64,000 bases of DNA from an uncultured Serinicoccus sp. (GTDB lineage Bacteria; Actinomycetota; Actinomycetes; Actinomycetales; Dermatophilaceae): assembly GCF_947500995.1 (NCBI RefSeq), contig NZ_CANMUA010000002.1, positions 186,001 to 250,000 of the forward strand, given 5' to 3'. Shown piece after piece: positions 50,301 through 64,000 of this stretch. Made by a program: the position numbers and the translations under genes. Numbering within the stretch: position 1 is the stretch's first letter; each line of letters opens with the position of its first letter. The notes under the pieces were generated by a model. The model searched no databases, was not told the DNA's origin, and saw only the letters and a program-made list of their open reading frames with translations.

Positions 50301-51397
50301 CCGCGCCGCCGGTGCGGGACGAGGGAGAGGATCGTATGGAGATCAGGTTCGACCACACCACGCTGGGGCAACGCGTGCTCTTCGGCACCGGGGCGGCCGG
50401 GGCGAACATCGCCGCGGCCCTGCGTGACCTGGGGGTCTCCCGCCCGCTGCTCGTGGGAGGGGGTCACGCAAGCGAGGTCGTGGACCAGGTCTCCGCGGAG
50501 TTCGCCGTTGCGGGCCACATCGGCGAGGTCGTGCAGCACGTGCCGGCGGAGCGGGCACGGGAGGCGAACGCGCTGGCGCAGGACGTGGGTGCGGACTCGG
50601 TCGTCGCCATCGGCGGCGGCTCGGCCACCGGGCTCGCCAAGATCGTCGCCCGGGACACCGGGGTGCCGGTCGTCGCGGTGCCCACCACCTTCTCGGGGTC
50701 GGAGGCGACCGACATCTGGGGGATGACCGAGGACGAGCGCAAGACCACCGGGGCCGACCTCCGCGTGCTGCCGAGGGTCGTGGTCTACGACGCGACGCTG
50801 ACCCAGGGTCTGCCGACCGACCTCGCGGTCCACTCCGGCCTCAACGCCCTGGCCCACGCCGTGGACAGCCTGTGGGCCCCGCGCGCCGACCCCATCAACC
50901 GGGCCATGGCCGGCGAGGGGATGCGCGCGCTGGTCCCGGGGCTGCGCGGCCTCCGGGCTAACACGTCGGATGTGCGCGCTCATGAGCAGGTGCTCTACGG
51001 CACCTACCTCTCGGGGGTGGCCCTCGCCTCGGCGGGCGCCGGGATGCACCACAAGATCTGCCACGTCCTGGGCGGGACGTTCAACCTGCCCCATGCCCCG
51101 ACCCATGCGGTAATGCTGCCGTACGTCGCGGCCTACAACGCCGATGCGGACCGGGACTCCGACGCCCGCATCGCCGAGGCCCTCGGGACCGCCCACGCCG
51201 CAGCGGGGTTGTGGGATCTCGCCCGAGTGGTGGGTGCGCCCGCCTCGCTCGGTGAGATCGGCTTCACCGAGGACGACGTCGACCTGGCGGCCGAGCTGGC
51301 GACAGCGGCGATCCCGGACTCGAACCCTCGGTCGGTGAGTCGGGAGAGGGTGGCGTCGCTCCTCCGGGCTGCGCTGTGGGGTGACGACGTCCGGTGA
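50297..51397 (+). CDS. Maleylacetate reductase, iron-containing alcohol dehydrogenase family
   Basis: About 366 residues. NAD(P)-binding IGGGSATGLAKIVARDTGVP, then PTTFSGSEATDIWGMTEDER, and the metal site in HSGLNALAHAVDS and MHHKICHVLGGTFNLPHAPT with His ligands. Reduces maleylacetate to beta-ketoadipate, the final step of this pathway before central metabolism. ATG 50297 overlaps the hydrolase stop (ATGA), but ATG 50336, with GGGAGAGGAT in front and MEIRFDH start, may be used as well. Confidence 0.9.
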   Translation: MTAPPVRDEGEDRMEIRFDHTTLGQRVLFGTGAAGANIAAALRDLGVSRPLLVGGGHASEVVDQVSAEFAVAGHIGEVVQHVPAERAREANALAQDVGADSVVAIGGGSATGLAKIVARDTGVPVVAVPTTFSGSEATDIWGMTEDERKTTGADLRVLPRVVVYDATLTQGLPTDLAVHSGLNALAHAVDSLWAPRADPINRAMAGEGMRALVPGLRGLRANTSDVRAHEQVLYGTYLSGVALASAGAGMHHKICHVLGGTFNLPHAPTHAVMLPYVAAYNADADRDSDARIAEALGTAHAAAGLWDLARVVGAPASLGEIGFTEDDVDLAAELATAAIPDSNPRSVSRERVASLLRAALWGDDVR

Positions 51398-51732
51398 CGA
51401 CGTGACCGTCAAGTCTTGACTGCAACGCGGTCGGCCGGGTGACCTGCTCCGCCGCCCAACTTCGTCCATAGGACAACCTACGAGACACCACCCGTAGACC
51501 CCTCGCAGGGTGCCCTCCAGCCGTCCTCAGGCGGACGGCCCTACGCCACAATCCTCCGTAATTCTACGGCCGGCGAGACGATCGTGGCTCACGGGTGGGC
51601 CCGAATCAGCCGCCGGACCTCCTAGGGGGTCGGTCATCAAGACATGCGGGGTCTGCCCCATTCCGGGCCGGTTCAACACCAAAGGCCGCCAAGGTGGTCA
51701 TGCCGCCGATGCCGCCGCTGAGCGCGGGGCCC
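51398..51732. other. Intergenic region without a clear gene
   Basis: 335 bases between the maleylacetate reductase and the SNF2 helicase. It contains the palindrome GTCAAG-T-CTTGAC (51408-51420), a GC hairpin at 51520-51539 and repeated CCGCCGATGCCGCCG runs. A tRNA-like T-arm string near 51668 does not fold into a cloverleaf. It marks the edge between the metabolic genes and the defence-like island. Confidence 0.5.
51520..51539. terminator. Candidate hairpin terminator
   Basis: GCCGTCC and GGACGGC with a 6-base loop, about 120 bases after the reductase stop. No T-tract. Confidence 0.4.
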
Positions 51733-54507
51733 CTAAGCTTCGGTAACGAAGTCCACGTGAGGCCCTCTCTCCACCGCGAGATCGAATCCCTCTCCCTGCT
51801 TTCCGCGGACCACGATTCCCTCAAGGCTCAGTTCCTCAGCCAACTCTGACAGGCGACCACTATGGTCCGACACCTCCGCCTCGCTACCCGTCCCACGGAC
51901 GGCCACGACGGCGACGGTCTGCGGACCAACCGCCCCGGCCACCTCGGCCAGCTCCATGGCCCAGGCACGGTCCGCCGACCCGTCCGGCGTCAGTTCCAGG
52001 GCAGCCCCCACCGCCACCTCTTCCCGGCCACCATCTCGTTCGACCCGCCACGTCCTGGGGTAGCCGACCTCCGTCGTGGTCAGCAGGAGGTAGTCGGCCG
52101 CGGCCGTCGGGTCAACCAGGGTCACCCCGTCCACCATCACCTCAGCGAGGTCTTGCAACACCCAGCGCGTCAGCGCCGTCAGCAGTGGATGGCCCGGCGC
52201 GAGGAACTGGCTGGCCCCCACCTCGTCGTCCAGCCCGTCACGCTGCAGATGCAAACGGCGGTAGTGCCGCTCCACCCCCGGAGCCTCAGCCAGCACCGCC
52301 GGCACGTAGGGCACCGACCAGACGCCCTCACCCACCTCGTGCACCTCCGCCCCGTAGCGCCGCAGCGCCCGCCGGGCGAACTCCGGCACTGTCGAGACCT
52401 GCGGGTCAAACTTTCGGGCCCAGGCCAGCTGCCGCTGGATCAGCTCCAGGTCCTCCTGGGTGAACTCGGTCGTGCTGGCTGTGCGTCGCTGCACCTCCTC
52501 CGCCAGACCACGGTCCAGCCGGTCCGACAGCACGCCCAGCCCGTCACCGCCCGAGATGCCCCGCACCGCCTGCGTGAGGATCCGGCTCAGATCTGCTCCG
52601 GACAGCACGTCGCCCAGCACGTCGAAGACCCGGTCCCCCAGAGCGTCCCGCTGCACCTGCAGCTTGTCCAGCAGGGTCTCGAAGACAGCACCCTCACGGG
52701 TGTCGGCCGCGACGAGGTTCCATAGGTGGCAGGTGCGCTCCTGCCCGATCCGATGGATTCGGCCGAACCGCTGCTCGAGCCGGTTGGGGTTCCAGGGGAT
52801 GTCGTAGTTCACCATCAAATTAGCAACTTGCAGGTTGACACCCTCCCCGGCGGCATCGGTCGCCAGAAGCACCGAGCAGCCCGGGTCATGAGTGAAGTCG
52901 TGCTGCGCCTGTCGGCGATCGTGCCGGGACGTCAACCCGCTGATGACCGCCACTCGCTCCCGCGGCCGAAGGATCTCCCCTAAGCGCTCCTCCAAGTAGT
53001 CCAGCGTGTCGCGATGCTCAGTGAAGACGATGATCTTGCGCCGGAAGCCGCGCTCGTCGGTCATGTCCGGACTGGTGAGCAGGCCCGCGAGGGCGTCCCA
53101 CTTGCGGTCGACGCCCTCCTGTCGCACCTGCCGCGCCCTGGCCACGAGCCGCTCGAGCACCAGGATCTCCCCTTGCAGCTCGGCCGGGGTCCGGGCCGAC
53201 GTCGCATCCGAGCGCGCGTCGTCGTCGACATCGTCCTCCTCGTCTCGATCCCCCACAGCCACAGGACCGCCCTCCAGCGATGCCGCCAGGAGGCGACGCA
53301 GGTCCTCCTCGGCCTCCTGGGCTAGCTCCAGCTGTGTGCGGAGCAGGTCGAGCCGCCGCTCCAACGAGCGCAGGATCGCCTCGGGCGAGGAGGCCAGGCG
53401 CCGCTGCAGCACCATCATCGCGAAGCCCACGTGCCTGCGAACCGTGTCGTCCATCACCTTGTTCATCTCGTCGGCGACGTACTCGGTCACCGCGTCGTAA
53501 AGCATCCGCTCCGGGCCAGCCATGGTGTAGGTGAGCGTGGAGGCCACACGGGGTGGGAACAGCGGGCTCCCGTCGGCGTGGACGAGCTGCTCCTTCACCA
53601 GGCGGCGCACCGGGGCCTGCTCGAGCACCGGGCGGTCAGGGTCCAGCTCGACCTCCAGCAGGCGCATGAAGTGCTGGAAGTCCGAGGCCTTACCGTTGTG
53701 CGGCGTCGCGGTGAGCAGCAGCAGGTGCTCAGCCGCCGCCGCCAGATCTTGTCCCAACTGGTAGCGCTTGCTGAAGAACGTCTTTGACCCCCAGTCCCGG
53801 GCGCTCATCTTGTGTGCCTCGTCAACGACCACGACGTCGAACCCGGTCGTGAGCACCGCTTCCCGCAGGTCGACGTTGCGCGCCAGCTGGTCCACCCGGG
53901 CCACGACCAGTGGCCCCGCCGGGGCCACCGTCGGCCGGGCGGGGTCGCCGCGGTCGAGGTGCTCCATCCCCAGCTCGACGAAGGCGAGGCCGAACTTGGT
54001 CCACATCTCCTCAACCCACTGCTCGGTCAGGCTCCCCGGCGCGACGATCAGTACCCGTCCGGCCCGCTGCAGGGCGAGCGTCTCCTTCAGATAGAGCCCG
54101 GTCATGATCGTCTTGCCCGCCCCGGGGTCGTCGGCCAGGAGGAAGCGGAGCTGCTCGTGCGGGAGCATCTCCTGGTAGACGGCCTGCACCTGGTGCGGCA
54201 GCGGCGCGATGTTGGAGGAGCTGACTGCGAGCAGGCGGCCCTCGTGAGGCGCGGCGGTCAGCGTTAGTGCCAGCAGCCCCAGCTGGACGTCCGGCCACGA
54301 TGCGCCAAAGGTTGCCGACAGCCGGGCCGGTGCGACGGCGGCAGCCTGCTCACGGTTGAGGAAGGCGCTGCCCAGCTCCCCCGACCCGCGCTGGTAAGAG
54401 ACGAGGGCCGACTCCCCGGCGTGGCGCACCGTCAACACGCGGACGGTCTCGCCGTCGACGACCCCCTCGACAAGCGCCCCTGGCACGAGTCCTTGCTGGT
54501 CAGCCAC
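51733..54507 (-). CDS. RapA/DrmD-like SNF2-family helicase
   Basis: 924 residues from GTG 54507. A small N-terminal domain (LVPGALVEGVVDGETVRVLT) is like that in DISARM DrmD and related defence helicases. Motor motifs: LPHQVQAVYQEML, LADDPGAGKTIMTGLYLKET (Walker A, about residue 125), VVVDEAHKMSARD (DEAH), LLLLTATPHNGK, IIVFTEHRDTLDYLEE, ATDAAGEGVNLQVANLMVNY and NRLEQRFGRIHRIGQERTC. An acidic insert (about 410-430) and a C-terminal 300-residue region of unknown fold follow; its end, GEGFDLAVERGPHVDFV, recalls DUF3883-type endings. Divergent from the SbcD-like gene by 58 bases. Confidence 0.85.
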   Translation of the reverse strand: MADQQGLVPGALVEGVVDGETVRVLTVRHAGESALVSYQRGSGELGSAFLNREQAAAVAPARLSATFGASWPDVQLGLLALTLTAAPHEGRLLAVSSSNIAPLPHQVQAVYQEMLPHEQLRFLLADDPGAGKTIMTGLYLKETLALQRAGRVLIVAPGSLTEQWVEEMWTKFGLAFVELGMEHLDRGDPARPTVAPAGPLVVARVDQLARNVDLREAVLTTGFDVVVVDEAHKMSARDWGSKTFFSKRYQLGQDLAAAAEHLLLLTATPHNGKASDFQHFMRLLEVELDPDRPVLEQAPVRRLVKEQLVHADGSPLFPPRVASTLTYTMAGPERMLYDAVTEYVADEMNKVMDDTVRRHVGFAMMVLQRRLASSPEAILRSLERRLDLLRTQLELAQEAEEDLRRLLAASLEGGPVAVGDRDEEDDVDDDARSDATSARTPAELQGEILVLERLVARARQVRQEGVDRKWDALAGLLTSPDMTDERGFRRKIIVFTEHRDTLDYLEERLGEILRPRERVAVISGLTSRHDRRQAQHDFTHDPGCSVLLATDAAGEGVNLQVANLMVNYDIPWNPNRLEQRFGRIHRIGQERTCHLWNLVAADTREGAVFETLLDKLQVQRDALGDRVFDVLGDVLSGADLSRILTQAVRGISGGDGLGVLSDRLDRGLAEEVQRRTASTTEFTQEDLELIQRQLAWARKFDPQVSTVPEFARRALRRYGAEVHEVGEGVWSVPYVPAVLAEAPGVERHYRRLHLQRDGLDDEVGASQFLAPGHPLLTALTRWVLQDLAEVMVDGVTLVDPTAAADYLLLTTTEVGYPRTWRVERDGGREEVAVGAALELTPDGSADRAWAMELAEVAGAVGPQTVAVVAVRGTGSEAEVSDHSGRLSELAEELSLEGIVVRGKQGEGFDLAVERGPHVDFVTEA

Positions 54508-54565
54508 GTCTCATCCTGTACGGTCCGGGTACGACAAAGTGACCCTATCCGGACAGGGAGACACA

Positions 54566-55573
54566 ATGACCGTGCGCCTGCTCGCCGTCTCCGGGCTGAA
54601 CCTCGACCGCGCGTGGCCCGACGAGGCTCCTGACGTGGGGAAGGCCCTCCGCGACACGAGCGCCGGTCTGCTGCTCGAGCTCGTCCAACGCACCCTCGAC
54701 CTGCAGGTCGACGCGCTCGCCGTCCTGGGCGGCCTCTGGGATCCGAGCACCGTGCGCAGCTCCACGGTCGACGACGTGGGCGCGGTGCTCGAGGCGGTGC
54801 CGGTCCCCGTGGTCGTGCTCCCGGACGCCAGCGAGGCCGAGACGGGCTTTCGACTGCACACACTCACCACCTGGCCCGGGTCCGTTCACTGGGTCGGCGG
54901 GGACGCCCCCGTGGAGGTCGAGGCCGGGACCGGTCGGGTGGTGGGCCAAGGACCACTGGGGTATGCCGTGCCTCTCCTTGACGACGCCCTGGCCCTGCTC
55001 ACCACCCGGGCCGCCGGCGAATCGGCCTCCTGCCCCATGGTCCGCCCCTCGGCCGACCGGTCCGGCCAGCCCCACCCCGAGGAGCAGCCCAACCACCCTG
55101 CAAATGTGGTGGAGGTGCCGCCCCTCGTGGCGGGGTCAGGCGCCGGCCGGCCCGTCGCCTGCGTCGTCACCCTCGACGCCGATGCCGACGCCCGCGTGGA
55201 GCGGGTTGAGCTCTCGCCGGATCTCGGCACCGTCCGCACCCTGGACGTCGGGGAGCACGCCGACGTCGCGTCCCTGAGGGCCGCCCTCGACGAGCGGCTC
55301 GCCGCCAGCGCTCCGCTCGACCGAGTAGTGGTCGCGGGCCGTGTGGGTCCTCGGGTGCTTGTCCCTCCTGCCTTGTGCTGGGAGCCGTCTCGTACGGACG
55401 TCACCGTAGTCTGGCGCGACCTGGAGCACGTCTTCCCCGAAGCACCGACCGAGCGCACCGTCCAGGCCGAGCTCATCCGCCGGCTCGCCGGGCCCGGGCC
55501 CGACCTGTCCCGCCGCCACCAGGCACTGGCGCTGGGTCTGGCCTCCCTAAACTCCGACGAGGCGACGGCATGA
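54566..55573 (+). CDS. SbcD-like protein without metal-binding motifs
   Basis: 335 residues from ATG 54566 with GGACAGGGAG upstream. The order of elements copies an SbcD/Mre11 metallophosphatase (VRLLAVSGLNLDRAW, VDALAVLGGLWDPSTV, VPVVVLPDASE), but the nuclease residues are missing: the DxH of the first motif reads SGLNLD, GDLxD reads GGLWD, and GNHD reads LPDAS. It is coupled by a 4-base overlap to an SbcC/YhaN-like ATPase, as real SbcD is to SbcC. So I read it as a non-catalytic partner or regulatory subunit. Assignment rests on order and context; similarity is weak. Confidence 0.6.
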   Translation: MTVRLLAVSGLNLDRAWPDEAPDVGKALRDTSAGLLLELVQRTLDLQVDALAVLGGLWDPSTVRSSTVDDVGAVLEAVPVPVVVLPDASEAETGFRLHTLTTWPGSVHWVGGDAPVEVEAGTGRVVGQGPLGYAVPLLDDALALLTTRAAGESASCPMVRPSADRSGQPHPEEQPNHPANVVEVPPLVAGSGAGRPVACVVTLDADADARVERVELSPDLGTVRTLDVGEHADVASLRAALDERLAASAPLDRVVVAGRVGPRVLVPPALCWEPSRTDVTVVWRDLEHVFPEAPTERTVQAELIRRLAGPGPDLSRRHQALALGLASLNSDEATA

Positions 55574-58500
55574 AATTCGACAGCATCACCGCCGACGCCT
55601 TCGGCCCGTTCAAGGGGGCAGAGCTCGAGGTGGGCCCGGGACTCACCGTCGTGCACGGGTTGAACGAGAGCGGCAAGTCCTCGTGGGCCGCCGCGCTCTA
55701 CGCCAGCCTTGCCGGGCGCCGACGGTCCCGGGGCCGCGGCACCAAGGAGGACGCGCAGTTCCGTGCCCGCCACAAGCCGTGGAACGGCACGCGCTGGCAG
55801 GTGACGGCGAAGATCACCACCGACGACGGGGCACGCCTGGCCGTGGCCCAGAACCTGCAGCAGGGCAGCACCCGGGTCATCGACCTGGAGACCTCTCGGA
55901 CGCTCACGCCCCGTGAGCTGCAGGAGCGGTTCGACATCCCCCCGTCCACGGGCGACGACATCGATGTCGGCCAGCTGTTCGGCCTGTCCCGGGGCACGCT
56001 GCGCGCCACGACGTTCGTGCCGCAGGCGGAGGTCCTGCGGGTGCTCGAGCAGGCGGACGAGCTGCAGCAGTTCCTCCAGCGCGCCGCGTCCAGCCAGACG
56101 GTCGACGTCACCGCTCACCAGGTCATCGAACGCCTTCGGGACGAGCTGTCCACGAGGGTCGGCAGTCTTAGCATCGGTCAGCGGCCCCTGCGTGCGACCA
56201 CGTCCCAGCTGCAGGTCGCCTCGGAGGAGGCCTACCGGTTGCGGACCGCCCGTGACGAGCTGAGGCAGGTGGCTGCCGAGCTGGCCCGGCAGCTCGAGGA
56301 CGAGGGTCGCGCACGGGCAGAGCTGACTGCGCTGGAGACCCTGGAGGGCTGGGCCGAGCTGGACGCGCTGGAGAACCGGGCGGCCCGCGTCGGAGCGTTC
56401 GAGAACGAGTTGGCGGAGTTGGGCACGGTGCCCGACGCCGCGCCTCCGGAGCTGCGCGAGCGGGTGCACGCTGCGCGAACGGCATACCTGACCTTGGGCG
56501 AGGTGCCACCGGCGCCCGAGGGGCCGGGCACGTCCGAGTTCGAGCAGCAGCTGGCAAAGCTGCCCCACGCCCCCACGGGCGACACCACTCCGGACCCCCA
56601 GGTGCGGCAGCTGTGGGAGAGCCTGCGGCAGGGAGTGTCCGCCCTTGACTCCCAGACGGACGCGGGGACGGAGGGGGACGAGGTGAAGGTGCCCGACGCC
56701 GGCAGCGACGAGCTGCGTCGCTATGCCGACCGCCTGCGAATCCCCCGCCCCGCGTGGGATCCCGCCGATGACGAGCAGGAGGCGCGGCTGCGGGACGAGC
56801 ACGAGGGGGCCCGGAGCAGGTATGCAGTGGAACTGCGGACCTGGACCGAAATTTCGGAGGGCTACGAACGGGCGATGGCGGACTACCGGCAAGCCCGGGC
56901 GGACTACGAGGAGCGGCTGAAGGACTACCAGGCCCGGCTGGAGTCGCACCGGGAGGAGGCGGCCGCCTGGGAGAGTGCCCAGCGAACCCGGGCCGAACTG
57001 CGGGCCCAGGAGCGGTCCGCCCGCGGCGGGGGCACCTGGCAGCTGGTCGTGGGAGCGCTGCTGACGCTCCTCGGACTGGTCGTACTCGTGGTCGAGCCCG
57101 TCACGGGTGTTGTGCTGCTCGTGCTGGGCCTGGCCCTTGTCGGCTGGGGCTTCGTGGTGCGTGCGAAGGGGCGTCGGGCCCCCACTTCCGAGCGCCCGGA
57201 GCCCGAGACGGAGCGGCCGACGCCGCCCTCCCCGCCCGACCCGCCGAACCCGCCGGAGATGACGCACCCCGGCCCCCGCCCGGGCGAACCGCTGCTGCCG
57301 CCGCGGGTGGACGACATCGTGGCCCGGCGCGCACGCTGGACCGATCAGGCCGCGGCCTTCGACGCCGCGCGTGAGGAGCTCCTCGGCGAGCTGCGGACGC
57401 GCGGGCTGCCTGTCGACCCCGAGGAGCTACAAGGCCTCGGCCGGGGGGTCGACGAGCGCGAAGGGGCACGACGGGCCGCCGAGGAGCGCCGGCTTTCGGC
57501 CGATGCGCTCCGGCAGCGCGTCGAGCAGACGGCCGGCCGGCTGCTCGCCGCCCTCGGCGAGCGCGGTGAGGAGGTTTCCCGGGTGGCAGGTCCCGAGGCC
57601 GCGGACCATGCTTACCGACGCTACGAGCAGGGCTGCCAGGAGCGTGCCGCGCTCGCCCGCGAGGCAGGACGCCGGGTGGACCTCGAGAGTGCCCTCGCCG
57701 CGAGGCGGTCGGAGGAGGCGGCGCACCAAGCGGCGGTCGCCCGCCGCGAGACCACCCGCTCCGCGCTCCTGGCCCTGTTTGCAGAGCTGGGCCAGGACCA
57801 CGGTGAGGACCCCGATGGGGCCGCCGCCCAGCTGGGCGGCTGGCTCGCGCGGCAGCAGGACGCCGACCAGGGACTCGCGCGCAGGGACCGGATGCAGTCC
57901 CTCCGGGACCAGCTCCTGGACGGGGGGACCCTGGACGAACTGACGACCGGGGCCGACGAGCTGCGCACCCGGCTGGGACGACGGCCAGAGCGCCCCGTCC
58001 CGCCCGACCTGGACCAGGCGCTGGCGGAGGCCGGCCGGCGCGTCGAGGACGCCGCCACCCGACGGGCCACCACCGAGGGCCGACTCCGGACGCTCCGCAG
58101 CGAGGAGCAGGATCTGGCGTCCGCGCTCGAACAGGAGGCCCGCCGGCGGCGTGAACTCGCCTCGGTGGAGGAGCTGAAGGCCACCCTCGAGCTGGCTGTC
58201 GAGCACCTCGACGCCGCGCAGGGCGAGACTCACCGCAGCCTGGCCCCGGTGCTGGAGTCCGCGATGCGCCCCCGAATCCCCTTGGTTACCGGTGGGCGCT
58301 ACCGCGACGCCCGCGTCGACCCTGAGGAGCTGACCGTCGAGCTGCAGGAACGGACGGGGTCCTGGCGCAACGCCACCTACCTCTCCCAGGGCACGACCGA
58401 GCAGACCTACCTCCTCCTGCGGCTTGCGCTCGTGGAGCACCTGGACACCCGCGAGACGATGCCGCTGGTCCTCGACGACGTCACCGTGCAGTGCGACCGC

Positions 58501-58659
58501 AACCGGACGGTGGCGCTGTTGGACCTGCTGGCCGACGTCGCACGCGAGCGTCAGGTCATCCTGTTCTCGCAGGAGTCCGGGGTGCTGGAGTGGGCTCAGG
58601 TGCGGCTTGACGAGGGGGCCGGGGACCGACTCGTCGCTCTCAATGCTTCGGCATCGTGA
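55570..58659 (+). CDS. SMC-like ATPase with central membrane helices (YhaN/SbcC-like)
   Basis: 1029 residues. Starts MKFDSITADAFGPFKGAELE; Walker A is GLNESGKS at residues 30-37. Long coiled coils run about 200-480 and 570-900. In the middle, about 488-535, lie two hydrophobic helices (WQLVVGALLTLLGLVVLVV and GVVLLVLGLALVGWGFVVR) plus a Pro-rich stretch, as in YhaN-type proteins. The C-terminal half has the signature SQGTTEQTYLLLRLALVEHL and Walker B MPLVLDDVTVQCD. The hinge is therefore membrane-inserted, with ATPase heads in the cytoplasm. ATG 55570 overlaps the SbcD-like stop (ATGA). Likely acts with that protein on DNA ends or invading DNA. Confidence 0.85.
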   Translation: MKFDSITADAFGPFKGAELEVGPGLTVVHGLNESGKSSWAAALYASLAGRRRSRGRGTKEDAQFRARHKPWNGTRWQVTAKITTDDGARLAVAQNLQQGSTRVIDLETSRTLTPRELQERFDIPPSTGDDIDVGQLFGLSRGTLRATTFVPQAEVLRVLEQADELQQFLQRAASSQTVDVTAHQVIERLRDELSTRVGSLSIGQRPLRATTSQLQVASEEAYRLRTARDELRQVAAELARQLEDEGRARAELTALETLEGWAELDALENRAARVGAFENELAELGTVPDAAPPELRERVHAARTAYLTLGEVPPAPEGPGTSEFEQQLAKLPHAPTGDTTPDPQVRQLWESLRQGVSALDSQTDAGTEGDEVKVPDAGSDELRRYADRLRIPRPAWDPADDEQEARLRDEHEGARSRYAVELRTWTEISEGYERAMADYRQARADYEERLKDYQARLESHREEAAAWESAQRTRAELRAQERSARGGGTWQLVVGALLTLLGLVVLVVEPVTGVVLLVLGLALVGWGFVVRAKGRRAPTSERPEPETERPTPPSPPDPPNPPEMTHPGPRPGEPLLPPRVDDIVARRARWTDQAAAFDAAREELLGELRTRGLPVDPEELQGLGRGVDEREGARRAAEERRLSADALRQRVEQTAGRLLAALGERGEEVSRVAGPEAADHAYRRYEQGCQERAALAREAGRRVDLESALAARRSEEAAHQAAVARRETTRSALLALFAELGQDHGEDPDGAAAQLGGWLARQQDADQGLARRDRMQSLRDQLLDGGTLDELTTGADELRTRLGRRPERPVPPDLDQALAEAGRRVEDAATRRATTEGRLRTLRSEEQDLASALEQEARRRRELASVEELKATLELAVEHLDAAQGETHRSLAPVLESAMRPRIPLVTGGRYRDARVDPEELTVELQERTGSWRNATYLSQGTTEQTYLLLRLALVEHLDTRETMPLVLDDVTVQCDRNRTVALLDLLADVARERQVILFSQESGVLEWAQVRLDEGAGDRLVALNASAS

Positions 58660-58728
58660 CACGCCAGTCCACCGTCCCGTCTTGCCGCGGTCTGTGTACG
58701 GTGCCTTGAGACACTGAAGGAGGGGCCA

Positions 58729-59043
58729 GTGACGGCACGCCGTGACCTGGACGGCCTACGGGCACCTGGTCGCTCCAAACTTTCACGGTCGTCGTCGCGG
58801 GGCTGTGGACTACCACACTCCGCCGACTTGCGGAGCAGCTCGCCGCACCTCAGTGCGCGTACGCAGGACGAGCTGAACCGGACCGTACAGCGAGCCGCTG
58901 TGGTCGTCGGTGTCCTTGGCCTCGCCTGCTCGCGGCCCCACTCTTGTCGAGCCGAGCCTCCAGCTGTTTCTCTGGTCCACCATCGCGGGTCTCGCATCCA
59001 TGAAGGTCGCCCTCTCGTGCTGGCATGGATCCACCGACGGTGA
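58729..59043 (+). pseudogene. Possible decayed small membrane-protein gene
   Basis: A good ribosome site (AAGGAGGGG) leads to a GTG at 58731. The continuous frame gives Arg/Ser-rich, unnatural protein, but natural-looking hydrophobic pieces appear in different frames: TFTVVVAGLWTTTLRRLAEQ, then RTVQRAAVVVGVLGLA, then LQLFLWSTIAGLASMKVALS. This fits a two- or three-helix membrane protein broken by frameshifts, but chance is possible. The rest of the 410-base gap (58660-59069) shows nothing else. Confidence 0.3.
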
Positions 59044-59069
59044 GCACGTTGCCGAGAGCAAATGCGCTT

Positions 59070-60722
59070 TCACCCCGACGACGGCAAGGTCCGTCCCGGG
59101 TCGCTACGCATCAGGTCGATCAGAGCTTGACACATCTCAGCCGAGGCGCCTGAGTCCTCGATCCTCTCGATCTGGTCGAGTTGCTTGCGTGCAGAGACCC
59201 ACGCGGACTTCCCCGACGAGGTGAGCAACCCGTCACCCCCCACGATGTCCCACACACCCACGGGAGGCGCGGGAATCACTCTTCGTCCCGAGTCGCCGGC
59301 CATGACCCTCCTACGGCCGGTCTTGGCCACTTTGAGCAGGAGGGTGAACGGACGGGTGTAGTCGTCATTCCTGACCCCCGAGTACCCCAGCACCTCGGTG
59401 GTGTAGGACGAGGTGACCGATAGTGATTCGTGCGTGTCCAAGTATGTCTCTATCGCAGCGCCGAGCCGCTCGATAGCCTCTACGTCGAACTCGTAGCGAA
59501 TCTGTTGCTTCGTGAAGACTTGTCTCAGCGAATCCACGTAGCCAGGGAGATTTTCTCGCACGTGATCTGCGATGCTCCTGCCCAGAAGTTGAGAGACCTT
59601 TCGTGGCTCAGCCTTGACTTCCAAGACTGCCTCGAAGTGCTGCATCGCACCCAAAGGCATCCAGTGCTGGTTCTCCGCCAGGACGATCGAGTGGGATTGC
59701 AGGACGTTCGAGGCAAACCTCTTCGATCGCCCGATCTCTACGCTGACCGCAGCCGGCAAGAGATCGAGACGGATCGGCGACCTGAGGGATGCTGTCCCGG
59801 ATTGCGCCCGTTCGGAAATCCCGAGGACCGCGTTGACGTCGAACCGGAAGGTCGGAACCTTGTGCGAGGTATGCAGGGACACCAGTGATCCCCGCGCGTA
59901 GATGTCCCGCAGGTCGCGCTCGAGCGGGTCCACCGGTCGGACCGCGAGAATGCTGGCCCGCGCACCGGCAGGTGCGGCCTGGGCGGCACCGGATGGCTCC
60001 TTCTGAAGATCGACGGACATCCCCGGGACCTTGATGGGGAACAGCGCCCAAGGCGCCGGATCGGCCCCGGCGATCATCGGACGGTCTCGTTCGTCGTCGA
60101 CGTCGAGAATCGTCCCGTCGCCCTCCGGCTGAAGGTCGTGCCCTGCCTGCACACCGTCGACGAAGAGGCGCCATCGGGTCGCGATCTTGGCGACGACCTC
60201 GGGGTCAGCCCTCTCGAACACCGGCTGCTCCAACTCTTGAATGCGCTCCAGCTCGGTCGAGAGCTCCCACACCCGCATGAACCACTCGTCAACCGACGCC
60301 GCTACGTCCTGGTCAACACCCATGAGCGCCGTGAAGTCCAGGAGGGACTGCGATGTTCCAGATCGCGCGATCACCAGGGAGTAGGCCTCGTGAGACGTCC
60401 TCTCTGACACCAGAGCCACGCTCGGGAACCGGTGGTCGCCCCAGGTCGCCGCCAGAACGCGTACGCCGGATCCGTCCGCGTGAGCCAACGCCTCGGCCAT
60501 GGCGAGCGCAGTCTCGAGCCCTCGACCGAACGCACTCCTCAGGACGAGCACGACCTGGAGCCGAGTACCCCTGAGCAGGTGGACGAGGTCGTGCTCGTGC
60601 ACGTCCTCCGCGTCCAGGACGGCGATGCCCTTTCCCGCACTGCCGAGAGCATCGCGCAAGGCCCGGGAGGCCCCGCCGGTCGCGCCCTCGTCGGTGTCGC
60701 TGATGAACTCTGTGCTGCCCAC
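59070..60722 (-). CDS. Unrecognised 550-residue protein of the helicase operon
   Basis: From GTG 60722, six bases after the UvrD-like gene. Not recognised. The N-terminal 130 residues look like an alpha/beta domain (GKGIAVLDAEDVHEHDLVHL, LVLRSAFGRGLETALAMAEA). A helical middle has ELSTELERIQELEQPVFERA; a C-terminal half is mixed, with EAVLEVKAEPRKVSQLLGRS and SSYTTEVLGYSGVRNDDYTR. No Walker, HKD or nuclease motif that I can trust. Codon use is less GC-biased than in flanking genes. Its fixed place behind two nucleic-acid enzymes suggests a component of the same system. Confidence 0.7.
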   Translation of the reverse strand: MGSTEFISDTDEGATGGASRALRDALGSAGKGIAVLDAEDVHEHDLVHLLRGTRLQVVLVLRSAFGRGLETALAMAEALAHADGSGVRVLAATWGDHRFPSVALVSERTSHEAYSLVIARSGTSQSLLDFTALMGVDQDVAASVDEWFMRVWELSTELERIQELEQPVFERADPEVVAKIATRWRLFVDGVQAGHDLQPEGDGTILDVDDERDRPMIAGADPAPWALFPIKVPGMSVDLQKEPSGAAQAAPAGARASILAVRPVDPLERDLRDIYARGSLVSLHTSHKVPTFRFDVNAVLGISERAQSGTASLRSPIRLDLLPAAVSVEIGRSKRFASNVLQSHSIVLAENQHWMPLGAMQHFEAVLEVKAEPRKVSQLLGRSIADHVRENLPGYVDSLRQVFTKQQIRYEFDVEAIERLGAAIETYLDTHESLSVTSSYTTEVLGYSGVRNDDYTRPFTLLLKVAKTGRRRVMAGDSGRRVIPAPPVGVWDIVGGDGLLTSSGKSAWVSARKQLDQIERIEDSGASAEMCQALIDLMRSDPGRTLPSSG

Positions 60723-60728
60723 TGCGTC

Positions 60729-62960
60729 TCAGCCGTCCTTGAGCAGCGAGGACCGCTCACCCGACCACGAGACCGCCAGGACGTCGCGCGCACGGGTGGC
60801 CGCGACATACAGCAGCGACCGTTCGCGCAGCATCGCGTCCTGCAGGTCCGCCTCGCTCGCGTCGTACTCCTTGAGCCCCGCAGGCACGGCACCCTCCCGC
60901 ACCTCGAAGAGCAGCACGCGGGCGAACTCCGTGCCCTTGGCCCGGTGCATCGTCATCACGACCGGCCGCCCGGCCCTGATCGACTCGCGGTCGACGGCAC
61001 GGACCTCGACACCACGCTCGGCCAGCCCGTTGACGACCCGGTCGCGCTGGAAGCGGTCCCGCACGAGCACCGCCACGGTCTCGGGCACCACGTCGGCCTC
61101 CGAGGTCCACGCGCGCACGAGCTCCGCGGCCTCGTCGAGCTCCTCCGACAGCGATGAGCACGGCAGCACCCGTGGCACGGGTCCGGAGCGTGCGGAGCGG
61201 TAGTCGTCGTGCTTCTCCGTCTCTCCCTCGAGGTCGCTGTAGTCGGCGCCGTCGAGGACGCCCATGGCCCAGCGCAGGTTCTGCTGAGTGGTCCGGTAGT
61301 TCAGCGTGAGCCGGCGGGACCGTCCCCGGGTCTCGATGCCGTAGTGCGAGAGGGTGATCTTCTGCCCGTAGATCCTCTGGTGGGAGTCCTCGGCGACGAA
61401 CAGGTCGTCCTCACCCGGCGCGACCAGGGCGCGCAGCAGCTGCCAGCGTGTGGACCCCAGGTCCTGCCCCTCGTCCACCAGCACGTGGTCGTAGGGCCGC
61501 CGCGCGCCGTGCTCCGCCTGCTGGTCCAGGTGTGCCGCCGCTACACTCGCGGCCTCTGCCCAGTCCAGCGTGCCGTGCGCGCGGGAGGCAGCTCGATACC
61601 GCTCCACCACCTCCCACACGGCGGCCCGCTGGCCACGGCTGAGGGAGACACCTCGACCTCGCCGTGGCGCACGGAAATAGGCCGCGGCCGAGGTCACCCG
61701 ACGAGGCAGCACGACGGTCTCGTACTCCGCCTCCATGAACGCCGGGCTCCGGAGGTGCTCGGGGAGGTCGGGCCCCACCGCCGCGATCGCCTCCCGCCAC
61801 GCCTCGGACCCGGTGCGTTGCAGCACGTCCGACGTGTCGGCTCCCAGCACGAGCGCGGCTGCCTCACCGATGTCTCGCCCCGCCTCGACGAGCACCGAAC
61901 GTGCGACGGCATCGACGCCCGCGAGCCGCAACCCCAGCTCGCCCAGACCGCGCACGAGCGGCACCTCCGGGTCGAGCCGACCCATGTCGCGCTCCAGCGC
62001 AGCAGCCAGGTTCGTGGTGAACGTCGTCAGGAGCACCCGCGGCGTGGGTCGCCGTGTGGCCAGCGCCCGCGCCCGGTGCAGCACGACCACCGTCTTGCCG
62101 GTGCCGGCTCCCCCGGTCACCTTCGCCGGTCCCCGGTAGGGCCGGTCGACGAACTGCTGCTGCAGCGGGTGCAGGAAGATTCGCCACGCGGCGAAGTCGC
62201 TGTCCTCCACGACCCGGCGGAGCTCCTCGTCGTCCTCGATCCATGCGAACGACAGCCGCCCGGCCGGATGCTGCAGACCGCGCAGCAGTCGCTCCTCGTC
62301 GCTGCCGCTGGTGTCCACCTCGGCGTCCAGGCCCAGCTTGCTGCGCACCTCCTCGACCGGTGTCCCGGCGCTGAGGTCGATGAGGGCCATCCCCTGCCAT
62401 TCGGCCGGCGCCGCCTCGGCCAGCGTGAGCACGCCCTCTTCGTCGGTGACCGTCATCGCCCTGCCCACGAAGTCCTCGTCCAGTCCGAGCTCGGTGAGCT
62501 GCTCGACGGTGAGCCCGTATGCCGGGAGCAGAGCTGGTGAGGTCGGCTCCGGTGCGGCAGCGGGCGGAGCCGCACGCGCAGCCTCTGACGTGGGGACGAC
62601 CTCTGCCTCAGCCACCGGTGCGGCCGCTGCCGGCTCAATAGTGCGGATCTCGGCGATCCCGGAGATCGGGTTCAGGCGCAGGGAGGTGCGCTCGGCGATC
62701 TTGATGGCCTCGTCGTGCGGCCAGATGCCGTGGAAGACGTAGGTGCTGGTGTCGGCCGTCGTGATCTTGAAGAGCACCGCCCGGTAGCCCTGGTCGACCC
62801 GCCCGGTGCGCACCCGCTCGTCGGCGGCGTTGACGATGGGCTCGATGTGCAGACCGGGTCGGGTGTCGTCCTCCGAGAGTTTCTCGAGGAAGGCGTAGGC
62901 CTTCTTCTTCATGACCGGCTCCAGCGGCCGCTCCTGCTTGGCCATGACGATGGTGGGCAT
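60729..62960 (-). CDS. UvrD/Rep-type helicase with RelE-like N-terminal domain
   Basis: 743 residues from ATG 62960. Residues about 8-95 resemble RelE-superfamily folds attached to some UvrD homologues: KKAYAFLEKLSEDDTRPGLH, GRVDQGYRAVLFKI and TYVFHGIWPHDEAIKIAE. A Pro/Ala linker (about 110-150) precedes the superfamily 1 motor with TGGAGTGKTVVVLHRARALA (Walker A, about 282), VLVDEGQDLGSTRWQLLRAL, RLTLNYRTTQQNLRWAM, VMTMHRAKGTEFARVLLFEV and LLYVAATRARDVLAVSWSG. The start ATG shares one base with the upstream stop (TGATG). Second gene of the leftward operon. Confidence 0.85.
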   Translation of the reverse strand: MPTIVMAKQERPLEPVMKKKAYAFLEKLSEDDTRPGLHIEPIVNAADERVRTGRVDQGYRAVLFKITTADTSTYVFHGIWPHDEAIKIAERTSLRLNPISGIAEIRTIEPAAAAPVAEAEVVPTSEAARAAPPAAAPEPTSPALLPAYGLTVEQLTELGLDEDFVGRAMTVTDEEGVLTLAEAAPAEWQGMALIDLSAGTPVEEVRSKLGLDAEVDTSGSDEERLLRGLQHPAGRLSFAWIEDDEELRRVVEDSDFAAWRIFLHPLQQQFVDRPYRGPAKVTGGAGTGKTVVVLHRARALATRRPTPRVLLTTFTTNLAAALERDMGRLDPEVPLVRGLGELGLRLAGVDAVARSVLVEAGRDIGEAAALVLGADTSDVLQRTGSEAWREAIAAVGPDLPEHLRSPAFMEAEYETVVLPRRVTSAAAYFRAPRRGRGVSLSRGQRAAVWEVVERYRAASRAHGTLDWAEAASVAAAHLDQQAEHGARRPYDHVLVDEGQDLGSTRWQLLRALVAPGEDDLFVAEDSHQRIYGQKITLSHYGIETRGRSRRLTLNYRTTQQNLRWAMGVLDGADYSDLEGETEKHDDYRSARSGPVPRVLPCSSLSEELDEAAELVRAWTSEADVVPETVAVLVRDRFQRDRVVNGLAERGVEVRAVDRESIRAGRPVVMTMHRAKGTEFARVLLFEVREGAVPAGLKEYDASEADLQDAMLRERSLLYVAATRARDVLAVSWSGERSSLLKDG

Positions 62961-64000
62961 CAGCGTCCTTCCGTAGCGGTCAGGGCCGCAGCGATGAGCT
63001 CGGGGTCGGGGGCGAGGACCGTCCATGCGTCGGCGCGCAGGTCGGCCTCCATCTGCGGGTCGGGCTCCAGCAGCACGACGACGCGCTGGTCGGTCCACAC
63101 CAGGTCGGCGGGCAGCCCGCCAGCGAGCTCGACGCCGATCTCTGGCACCGGCACCCGCAGTGCCGCCAGTCGCGTCGCCAGGGCCTTCTCCTGGGAGGTG
63201 AGCTGTTGACCCTCCAGCGCCGCCCACGGCCCGGTGAGCTCCCCCTCGGCGGCTCCGGACCGGGTCGGGGCGGGCTCGCCCTCGAGCTTCTCCACGGCGG
63301 TGCGGGCGGTCACCGCCACATCGGGCAGCGCCGAGGTCACCGCGTTGCCGATGCGCAGCCACTCCTGCCACGACTCCTTGTGGGTGGGGCTGTCCACCGC
63401 TGTGTCACGGTCGTCGAGCATCACGACCGTCTCCACGCCCGTGCCGAGGCGGCTCAGGACGACGAGATGGTCCCGTCGCCAGAGAAGCCCGCCGGCGGCC
63501 CCCTCCACCTCGACACCGTCGAGCAGTGCCGCCGCGGCCTCCGCCAGGGGCCGGTCGGCGGGCAGTCTCAGGGGCTCGGAGTCGGGTGCGAGGACCAGGC
63601 CGAGTGCCCGGCCGAGAGCCGTGCGCGGATCGTTGTCATAGGGCCGCTGCAGCCGACCGAGCAGCATGGACAACGGACCGCCCCGGACCTCGTCGACGGC
63701 GCCCTGGCCGATCCCCGCCCCGACGCCGCCAGCCGGTCGGGCGAGCAGCTCGGCCATCACGTCCTGACGCAGCCAGTCCGGCCCCGGGGTCGACCCCTCG
63801 ACGGGCTGGAGGTCGGCATGTGTCACGGACAGCACCTCGATCCCGTTGTCCCGCAGCGTCGCACGCTTGGCGGCATCGTCCTCGATCCGGTTGTGGGCCG
63901 GGCTCGCGTGGTAGGTCCAGCCGTCGGCGAAGATGGCGACGGGCGCGACATTGGGGTCGTCGGTGCGCAGGACGAAGTCGGGCTTGCACCCGTGCATCAG
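62960..64000 (-). CDS. C-terminal part of a large protein with Vsr/DUF559-like nuclease domain
   Basis: The frame is open to the window edge, so the start is outside. The visible 346 residues begin with a Vsr/DUF559-type PD-(D/E)XK pattern: GCKPDFVLRTDD, VAIFADGWTYHASPAHNRIE and DDAAKRATLRDNGIEVLSVT. Such domains are often at the C-terminus of long DEAD/DUF1998 helicases. The following 280 residues match nothing I know; the end has LVWTDQRVVVLLEPDPQMEA. The stop is coupled to the UvrD-like start. First visible gene of the operon; it may be the main DNA-cutting component. Confidence 0.65.
   Translation of the reverse strand: MMHGCKPDFVLRTDDPNVAPVAIFADGWTYHASPAHNRIEDDAAKRATLRDNGIEVLSVTHADLQPVEGSTPGPDWLRQDVMAELLARPAGGVGAGIGQGAVDEVRGGPLSMLLGRLQRPYDNDPRTALGRALGLVLAPDSEPLRLPADRPLAEAAAALLDGVEVEGAAGGLLWRRDHLVVLSRLGTGVETVVMLDDRDTAVDSPTHKESWQEWLRIGNAVTSALPDVAVTARTAVEKLEGEPAPTRSGAAEGELTGPWAALEGQQLTSQEKALATRLAALRVPVPEIGVELAGGLPADLVWTDQRVVVLLEPDPQMEADLRADAWTVLAPDPELIAAALTATEGR

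Follow-up and report, generated by a model that had tools for sequence, protein, structure and literature searches.

The window analysed here is a 64,000-nucleotide stretch of the genome of an uncultured Serinicoccus sp. (G000:C2:186001-250000; genome of 3.8 megabases in 45 contigs), and its last part, from position 51,733 onward, is where two units of a single defence island adjoin: ARMADA type II on the minus strand, and a trio of genes that we call module A. The contig was read onward to C2:290000. The window coordinates of the six genes were taken from the open reading frame (ORF) listing and from start-site calls, which confirmed all of them near the positions given in an earlier reading of the letters alone (the sequence-only reading). 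The genes are the following.

51733-54507, minus strand: SNF2a, an HmaA-type SNF2/SF2 helicase of 924 amino acids, module A (PADLOC, motifs, tree)
54566-55573, plus strand: MRE11L, a protein of Mre11/SbcD fold, 335 amino acids, module A (Foldseek, structural alignment, motifs)
55570-58659, plus strand: SMCL, a Rad50/YhaN-like ABC ATPase of 1029 amino acids, module A (Pfam, PDB, hydropathy)
59070-60722, minus strand: U550, an orphan protein of 550 amino acids at the 3' end of the ARMADA operon (family searches negative)
60729-62960, minus strand: ArmD, a UvrD/GajB-like helicase of 743 amino acids with a RelE-like N-terminus, ARMADA type II (Pfam UvrD, PADLOC, collinear relatives)
62960-64000, minus strand: ArmC, the C-terminal 346 amino acids of a 2,120-amino-acid YprA/DUF1998 helicase with a Vsr-like end, ARMADA type II (DEAD, Helicase_C and MZB domains; DruE)

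The sequence-only reading had placed the six genes in two facing units. All six exist, but SNF2a is divergent from the MRE11L-SMCL pair (58 nucleotides between the starts) and only SMCL and U550 converge, 410 nucleotides apart. The tight spacing from which a common function had been deduced is confirmed: MRE11L and SMCL overlap by 4 nucleotides, 6 nucleotides separate U550 from ArmD, and the stop of ArmC and the start of ArmD have one base in common (TGATG). Comparison across genomes nevertheless gives two units. A scan of window positions 51350-59300 yielded neither promoters nor terminators, and no tRNA was found in G000:C2:235001-290000.

The minus-strand unit is almost certainly ARMADA type II, an already-known defence system. 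ArmC runs past the window edge (whole gene G000:C2:248960-255322, 2,120 amino acids), and two further minus-strand genes precede it: a PglX-like N6-methyltransferase of 1,546 amino acids (ArmB), overlapping ArmC by 4 nucleotides, and a 953-amino-acid SNF2 helicase (ArmA), 1 nucleotide away from ArmB. The preprint of Bell et al. 2025 (PMC12458937) gives the ARMADA type II order as a BrxHII-like helicase, a PglX-like methyltransferase, YprA with a Vsr-type end, and a GajB-like helicase that carries a RelE-like domain as a fusion; according to these authors, anti-phage protection in E. coli depends on all four genes. ARMADA is reported to protect cells with their membrane potential and viability preserved. 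The order ArmA-ArmB-ArmC-ArmD found here is identical to that published definition. The absence of a methyltransferase, as it appeared from the window, is thus an edge artefact, since the window edge cuts the operon. The gene first read as a Vsr-like nuclease protein encodes the C-terminal part of the YprA/DUF1998 helicase; its Vsr-like end was recognised by eye, with no Pfam Vsr match, and the part inside the window has no PADLOC or Pfam match. The ArmC domains are DEAD, Helicase_C and MZB (Pfam), and PADLOC assigns the protein to DruE (282 bits). ArmD matches Pfam UvrD and the PADLOC profiles NERD+UvrD and GajB; its RelE-like N-terminus, recognised by eye and with the help of PMC12458937, has no Pfam, PHROG or PDB match and aligns with the ArmD relatives. 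Walker A motifs are present in ArmA, ArmC and ArmD (GLGKT, GSGKTE and GAGTGKT, respectively) and NPPW in ArmB, while a loose regular expression for the S-adenosylmethionine GxG motif gave no match. No ARMADA entry occurs among the PADLOC 2.0 matches listed for the unit, which PADLOC divides among DruE, type IIG methyltransferase/DrmMI, DrmD/BrxH and GajB/NERD-UvrD.

Collinear ARMADA type II units were found in genomes G447 (60/56/51/49% identity) and G988 (58/53/49/46%), on an E. coli IncY plasmid (36/33/29/32%), on a Tsukamurella plasmid, whose annotation splits the YprA gene in two, and on two Streptomyces plasmids, where the SNF2 gene was missed by the gene caller and is annotated in PLSDB; one of these two SNF2 proteins falls in the ArmA clade of our tree. 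The ArmD N-terminus has a second match in G269 (30%) in a different gene context, and a search of viral contigs with ArmB was unproductive. A 48-base stretch of the ArmD gene (window 62070-62117) is repeated, at 88%, at G000:C3:357301-357348.

Two orphan genes flank the operon, U550 at its 3' end and U687, which encodes 687 amino acids (G000:C2:262892-264955) and lies 69 nucleotides upstream of ArmA on the same strand. Neither matches a family in PADLOC, Pfam, NCBIfam or PHROGs, and a search of nine related loci gave no relative of either. Among 248 genomes, U550 was met in its own genome and as one weak match (G073) covering 80 amino acids only, and tblastn against plasmids was unproductive. 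Both are probably accessory or passenger genes.

Module A, the trio in which SNF2a is divergent from the MRE11L-SMCL pair, recurs at all five loci known to carry a full-length MRE11L. It is rare, and we consider it nearly certain to be a real unit. A scan of genome contigs with SMCL revealed two of these loci, in Propioniciclava tarda (L021; identities for SNF2a/MRE11L/SMCL of 64/45/49%) and in a metagenome-assembled Propionibacterium genome (L022, genome G489; 64/49/48%), and the MRE11L profile then led to two more, G974 and G988, both with the whole trio. In genome samples that overlap, the MRE11L profile recovered the own genome, G974, G988 and G857 (an active-type Mre11) from 394 genomes of the class; G488, G489 and one weak match from 197 genomes of the P. 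tarda family; and G974 (395 bits) and G988 (379 bits) from 358 genomes of an order. Of the same 358 genomes 63 others have partial matches that do not exceed 52 bits, which is what ordinary Mre11 should give, and active-type Mre11 was among those inspected closer. When the single sequence was run against 246 genomes of the phylum, it gave the own genome and two weak matches. Weak MRE11L matches include G451 and G857, both active-type Mre11, as well as G463 and G568. Plasmid tblastn with MRE11L and SMCL was unproductive, as was a search of viral contigs with SMCL. In a tree of SMC heads the long branches meet, and it gives no decision on module A as a single clade.

MRE11L has the fold of SbcD with degenerate metal-binding motifs and is predicted to be a pseudo-nuclease. 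The structural model was built with AlphaFold2 from three sequences (mean predicted local distance difference test, pLDDT, of 64). All 50 Foldseek matches listed for it are Mre11/SbcD (best E 2e-8), and VIA-align places E. coli SbcD first (Z 15.9, root-mean-square deviation 3.3, 194 aligned, MRE11L residues 1-219), with other metallophosphoesterases trailing at Z of about 11-13. The metal-binding motifs were compared between the five module A proteins and five Mre11/SbcD of active type. Motif 1 reads SDLHLD or similar in four of the five active-type proteins, and SGLNLD, AGLNLD, TGLNID or SGVNLD in module A; in motif 2, GD has become GG in four of five module A copies and is kept in G988; and neither GNHD (GRSD in G988) nor GHxH occurs in any of the five. 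The window copy thereby has none of the four Mre11 metal-binding motifs (DxH, GD, GNHD, GHxH), and all of them are lost in four of the five copies. The ordinary SbcD of the own genome also deviates slightly from the consensus (ADWQIG, GDRH), so arguments from single letters of a motif need care.

SMCL is a Rad50-like ATPase, with Pfam AAA_23 and AAA_27 above cut-off and a profile match to Rad50 in PDB (E 1.1e-8). Its PADLOC matches are weak (mad3, 49 bits; LmuB, 32 bits), and PHROGs contributed weak SbcC-type matches to this protein only. The region near residues 495-540 is hydrophobic over some 40 residues and has a turn in its middle (hydropathy 2.62), and peaks of 2.6-2.9 are found in four of the five module A SMCL proteins. 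Judged from hydropathy, the stretch is probably a transmembrane hairpin at the apex of the coil in these four copies. Pfam recognised no pore-forming domain in SMCL. The own genome also carries an ordinary SbcCD pair, and its SbcC has no hairpin. Active-type Mre11 together with a hairpin-bearing SMC was observed at L088:9033-13352 and L089:8085-11857, in large actinobacterial genomes and outside obvious defence context. Within 17-18 kilobases around the Mre11-SMC pairs of G1277, G1203, G1313 and G1210 there was no match to SNF2a or ArmA.

The SNF2 gene of the trio is of HmaA type and not DrmD-like, as it had first been labelled: its best PADLOC match is HmaA (735 bits, profile positions 7-840 of 1176) versus 381 bits for the best DrmD. 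Walker A and DEAH motifs are present. A tree of 16 rows unites four of the module A helicases in one clade (97/97) adjoining HmaA; the fifth, from G974, falls inside HmaA, and the ArmA proteins are distant. SNF2a matches 56 plasmid records, of which five were inspected. Four of these were annotated, and all four have a DUF1156 gene close to the matching gene; in the two records tested (L036 and L074, true Hma controls) the neighbours match HmaB and HmaC. The NOV_C domain is present in all four plasmid HmaA proteins examined and was not found in any of the four clade members (window, L021, L022, G988). HmaB (DUF1156) and HmaC (DUF499) are absent among the PADLOC matches listed for the proteins of the window locus. 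The model of the SNF2a C-terminus is poor (pLDDT 58.5), and no structure matched it with an E value of 0.001 or better, so that a decayed nuclease domain there would rest on sequence only.

Every one of the five module A loci is part of a defence island, and in four a PglX-type methyltransferase system is adjacent; we judge it likely that the trio acts in defence. The window locus has ARMADA type II and Azaca as neighbours, the latter complete (ZacA-ZacB-ZacC, G000:C2:265910-272105, plus strand, divergent from ARMADA type II) and matched near full length by PADLOC in one operon (402, 550 and 1,096 bits). An EcsC-like gene of 240 amino acids follows just after ZacC (G000:C2:272181-272903; PADLOC PDC-S29, 203 bits). 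The G988 locus combines module A with ARMADA type II and Azaca, in an order unlike that of the window; its SMCL is followed immediately by a type IV restriction gene (L032:13616-16708; 843 bits), and two giant minus-strand genes (2,144 amino acids, SNF2-like; 1,743 amino acids) lie upstream of its ARMADA type II (L072:5093-16755). In P. tarda, UzuA is found near module A, together with a cluster that we provisionally call ARMADA type I-like (L048:9940-17000 and L021:17325-23069): a DruE-like YprA, whose end looks Vsr-like by eye, an SNF2 helicase and a DrmMI-like methyltransferase follow the ARMADA type I order. Against this assignment, the SNF2 protein best fits DpdE, the methyltransferase shows up in more than one ORF, and Walker A and DEFH patterns gave no match in the YprA. 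G489 has Azaca and NERD-UvrD-like genes, with no ARMADA match on its 38-kilobase contig. G974 has BREX and Leo, LeoBC and LeoA being situated between BREX and module A (L031:614-6009). In the examined stretches of L021, L022 and G974 the trio occurs without ARMADA type II. ZacA is present in 8 of 296 genomes of the class, the own genome included, and its match in G447 is a fragment about 10 kilobases from ARMADA type II. Azaca at two of the four module A loci outside the window, set against 7 of 295 genomes, gives a binomial p of 0.003, on a tiny, phylogenetically non-independent sample and with defence genes clustering in any case.

With some hesitation we suggest that module A is a nuclease-free, Mre11-Rad50-shaped sensor or clamp for DNA ends, in most copies probably tethered to the membrane, combined with a DNA motor; of the mechanisms considered this would be the most economical. 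SMCL and MRE11L would form a clamp of Mre11-Rad50 shape that recognises DNA ends or branched intermediates of injection or replication and, its nuclease site being dead, would sense and hold DNA rather than cut it. The hairpin would retain the clamp at the membrane, where phage or plasmid DNA enters, and the SNF2 motor would move duplex DNA through or off it. The DNA might then be destroyed by neighbouring nuclease systems (ARMADA, BREX), or could not replicate as long as it is held. In its fuller form, which we offer tentatively, this would be an undescribed module in which an HmaA-type motor and a nuclease-dead, membrane-hinged Mre11-Rad50 capture incoming or replicating foreign DNA uncut and pass it to a co-travelling PglX-type system (ARMADA type I, ARMADA type II or BREX). 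Such a hand-over would explain why the neighbours vary but are nuclease-rich. Several observations weigh against this model. Module A is known from five loci only. The MRE11L of G988 retains GDLFD, and its SMCL is without the hydrophobic stretch (peak 1.16), so that a membrane anchor is not universal in module A. The hairpin also occurs in the SMC partners of active-type Mre11 (G1277, G1203, G451), and therefore is neither peculiar to module A nor an invention specific to defence. In G974 a NOV_C ORF lies behind an in-frame stop of the HmaA-type helicase gene (L031:6363-9794), beside an otherwise intact MRE11L-SMC pair, and 'nuclease-free' may thus fail for that locus. Finally, ARMADA type II is found without module A in G447 (78 kilobases examined) and on four plasmids (28-35 kilobases examined), and six other ZacA loci have neither module A nor ARMADA type II within about 20 kilobases; the partnership is consequently optional at most.

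Some of the same evidence bears on the alternatives. Module A could be a self-contained abortive system in which SMCL-MRE11L senses phage DNA ends, ATP-driven motion of the coiled coil acts through the hairpin to disturb the membrane and so stops the infected cell, and SNF2a loads or clears DNA. No active nuclease is seen in the trio, four of five SMCL proteins have the hairpin, and the neighbours vary among loci as they would around a stand-alone system; yet G988 does without the hairpin, SMC partners of active Mre11 carry it too, and its place at the coil apex, with no pore-forming domain recognised, is that of a tether, so that we find this unlikely. A role in repair or self-protection, whereby module A would bind breaks made in the host chromosome by ARMADA, BREX or other nucleases and shield or restart them, fits the homology to Mre11-Rad50, the nuclease-rich systems near all five loci, and the additional ordinary SbcCD, beside which a special role is plausible. 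The loss of the metal site would be odd for repair, however, and ARMADA type II lacks the trio at five examined loci, which leaves this explanation rather improbable. Equally doubtful is a derived Hma system, in which an HmaA helicase would have exchanged HmaB and HmaC for the Mre11-SMC pair and kept the Hma mode of action: the tree speaks for it, with SNF2a adjoining HmaA and the G974 helicase inside it, but neither HmaB nor HmaC is among the PADLOC matches listed for the window locus and NOV_C was not found in four of the five helicases. That all six genes make up one new system, as the sequence-only reading proposed, appears very improbable. They do share a neighbourhood with tight spacing, and G988 likewise has module A together with ARMADA type II and Azaca at a single locus; against this, the parts separate in relatives, the window and G988 do not have the same gene order, and U550 was found in none of nine relatives searched. 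ARMADA type II and the trio each occur without the other in relatives, and the genes read past position 64,000 complete a known system, ARMADA type II, both being outcomes named beforehand as speaking against a six-gene system. The defence context of that proposal is well supported (ARMADA type II, Azaca, islands at five of five loci).

With the minus-strand part assigned to an already-known system that runs past the end of the window, the remaining object is a small recurrent trio, a candidate new module that apparently is undescribed: we found no description of it in the full-text open literature, a scope outside which fall subscription papers, most preprints and supplements. In it a central DNA-repair nuclease has kept its fold while losing the metal site, and is joined with a DNA motor and, in most copies, with a probable membrane hairpin. 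If the model of a DNA-holding clamp is right, an Mre11-Rad50-like complex would act as a bacterial immune sensor, and the recruitment of mobile helper modules by restriction-type systems would become directly testable.

Compared with known systems, the ARMADA type II unit shares the four genes, their strict order, the Walker A and NPPW motifs and the MZB/DUF1998 domain with its type; the window copy differs in its flanks (Azaca, U687, U550, module A). DISARM class 1, which has separate DrmA and DrmB plus DrmC, was rejected, as YprA is one fused helicase of 2,120 amino acids with DruE as best match, no DrmB is among the matches listed, and DrmC appears at 24 bits only, on ZacB. For Gabija, the UvrD protein matches GajB, but the GajA matches, both on SMCL, reach only 16 and 13 bits. 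The nearest relative of SNF2a is HmaA of the Hma system (Payne et al. 2021, PMC8565338); Hma itself was rejected, with no HmaB or HmaC among the matches listed for the locus and no NOV_C. SMC-type ATPases in defence are already known (PMC10586767), and SMCL resembles Lamassu, Wadjet and MADS in being a coiled-coil ABC ATPase in a defence setting. Lamassu was rejected on its weak LmuB match to SMCL only; LmuA, LmuC, Jet and the rest of MADS are not among the matches listed, and module A has an SNF2 motor and a pseudo-Mre11 instead. Similar in build are SbcCD and the YhaO-YhaN-type Mre11-SMC pairs, likewise two overlapping genes for an Mre11-fold protein and a Rad50-like ATPase. From these module A is set apart by its lost metal site, its divergent HmaA-type helicase and its place in defence islands.

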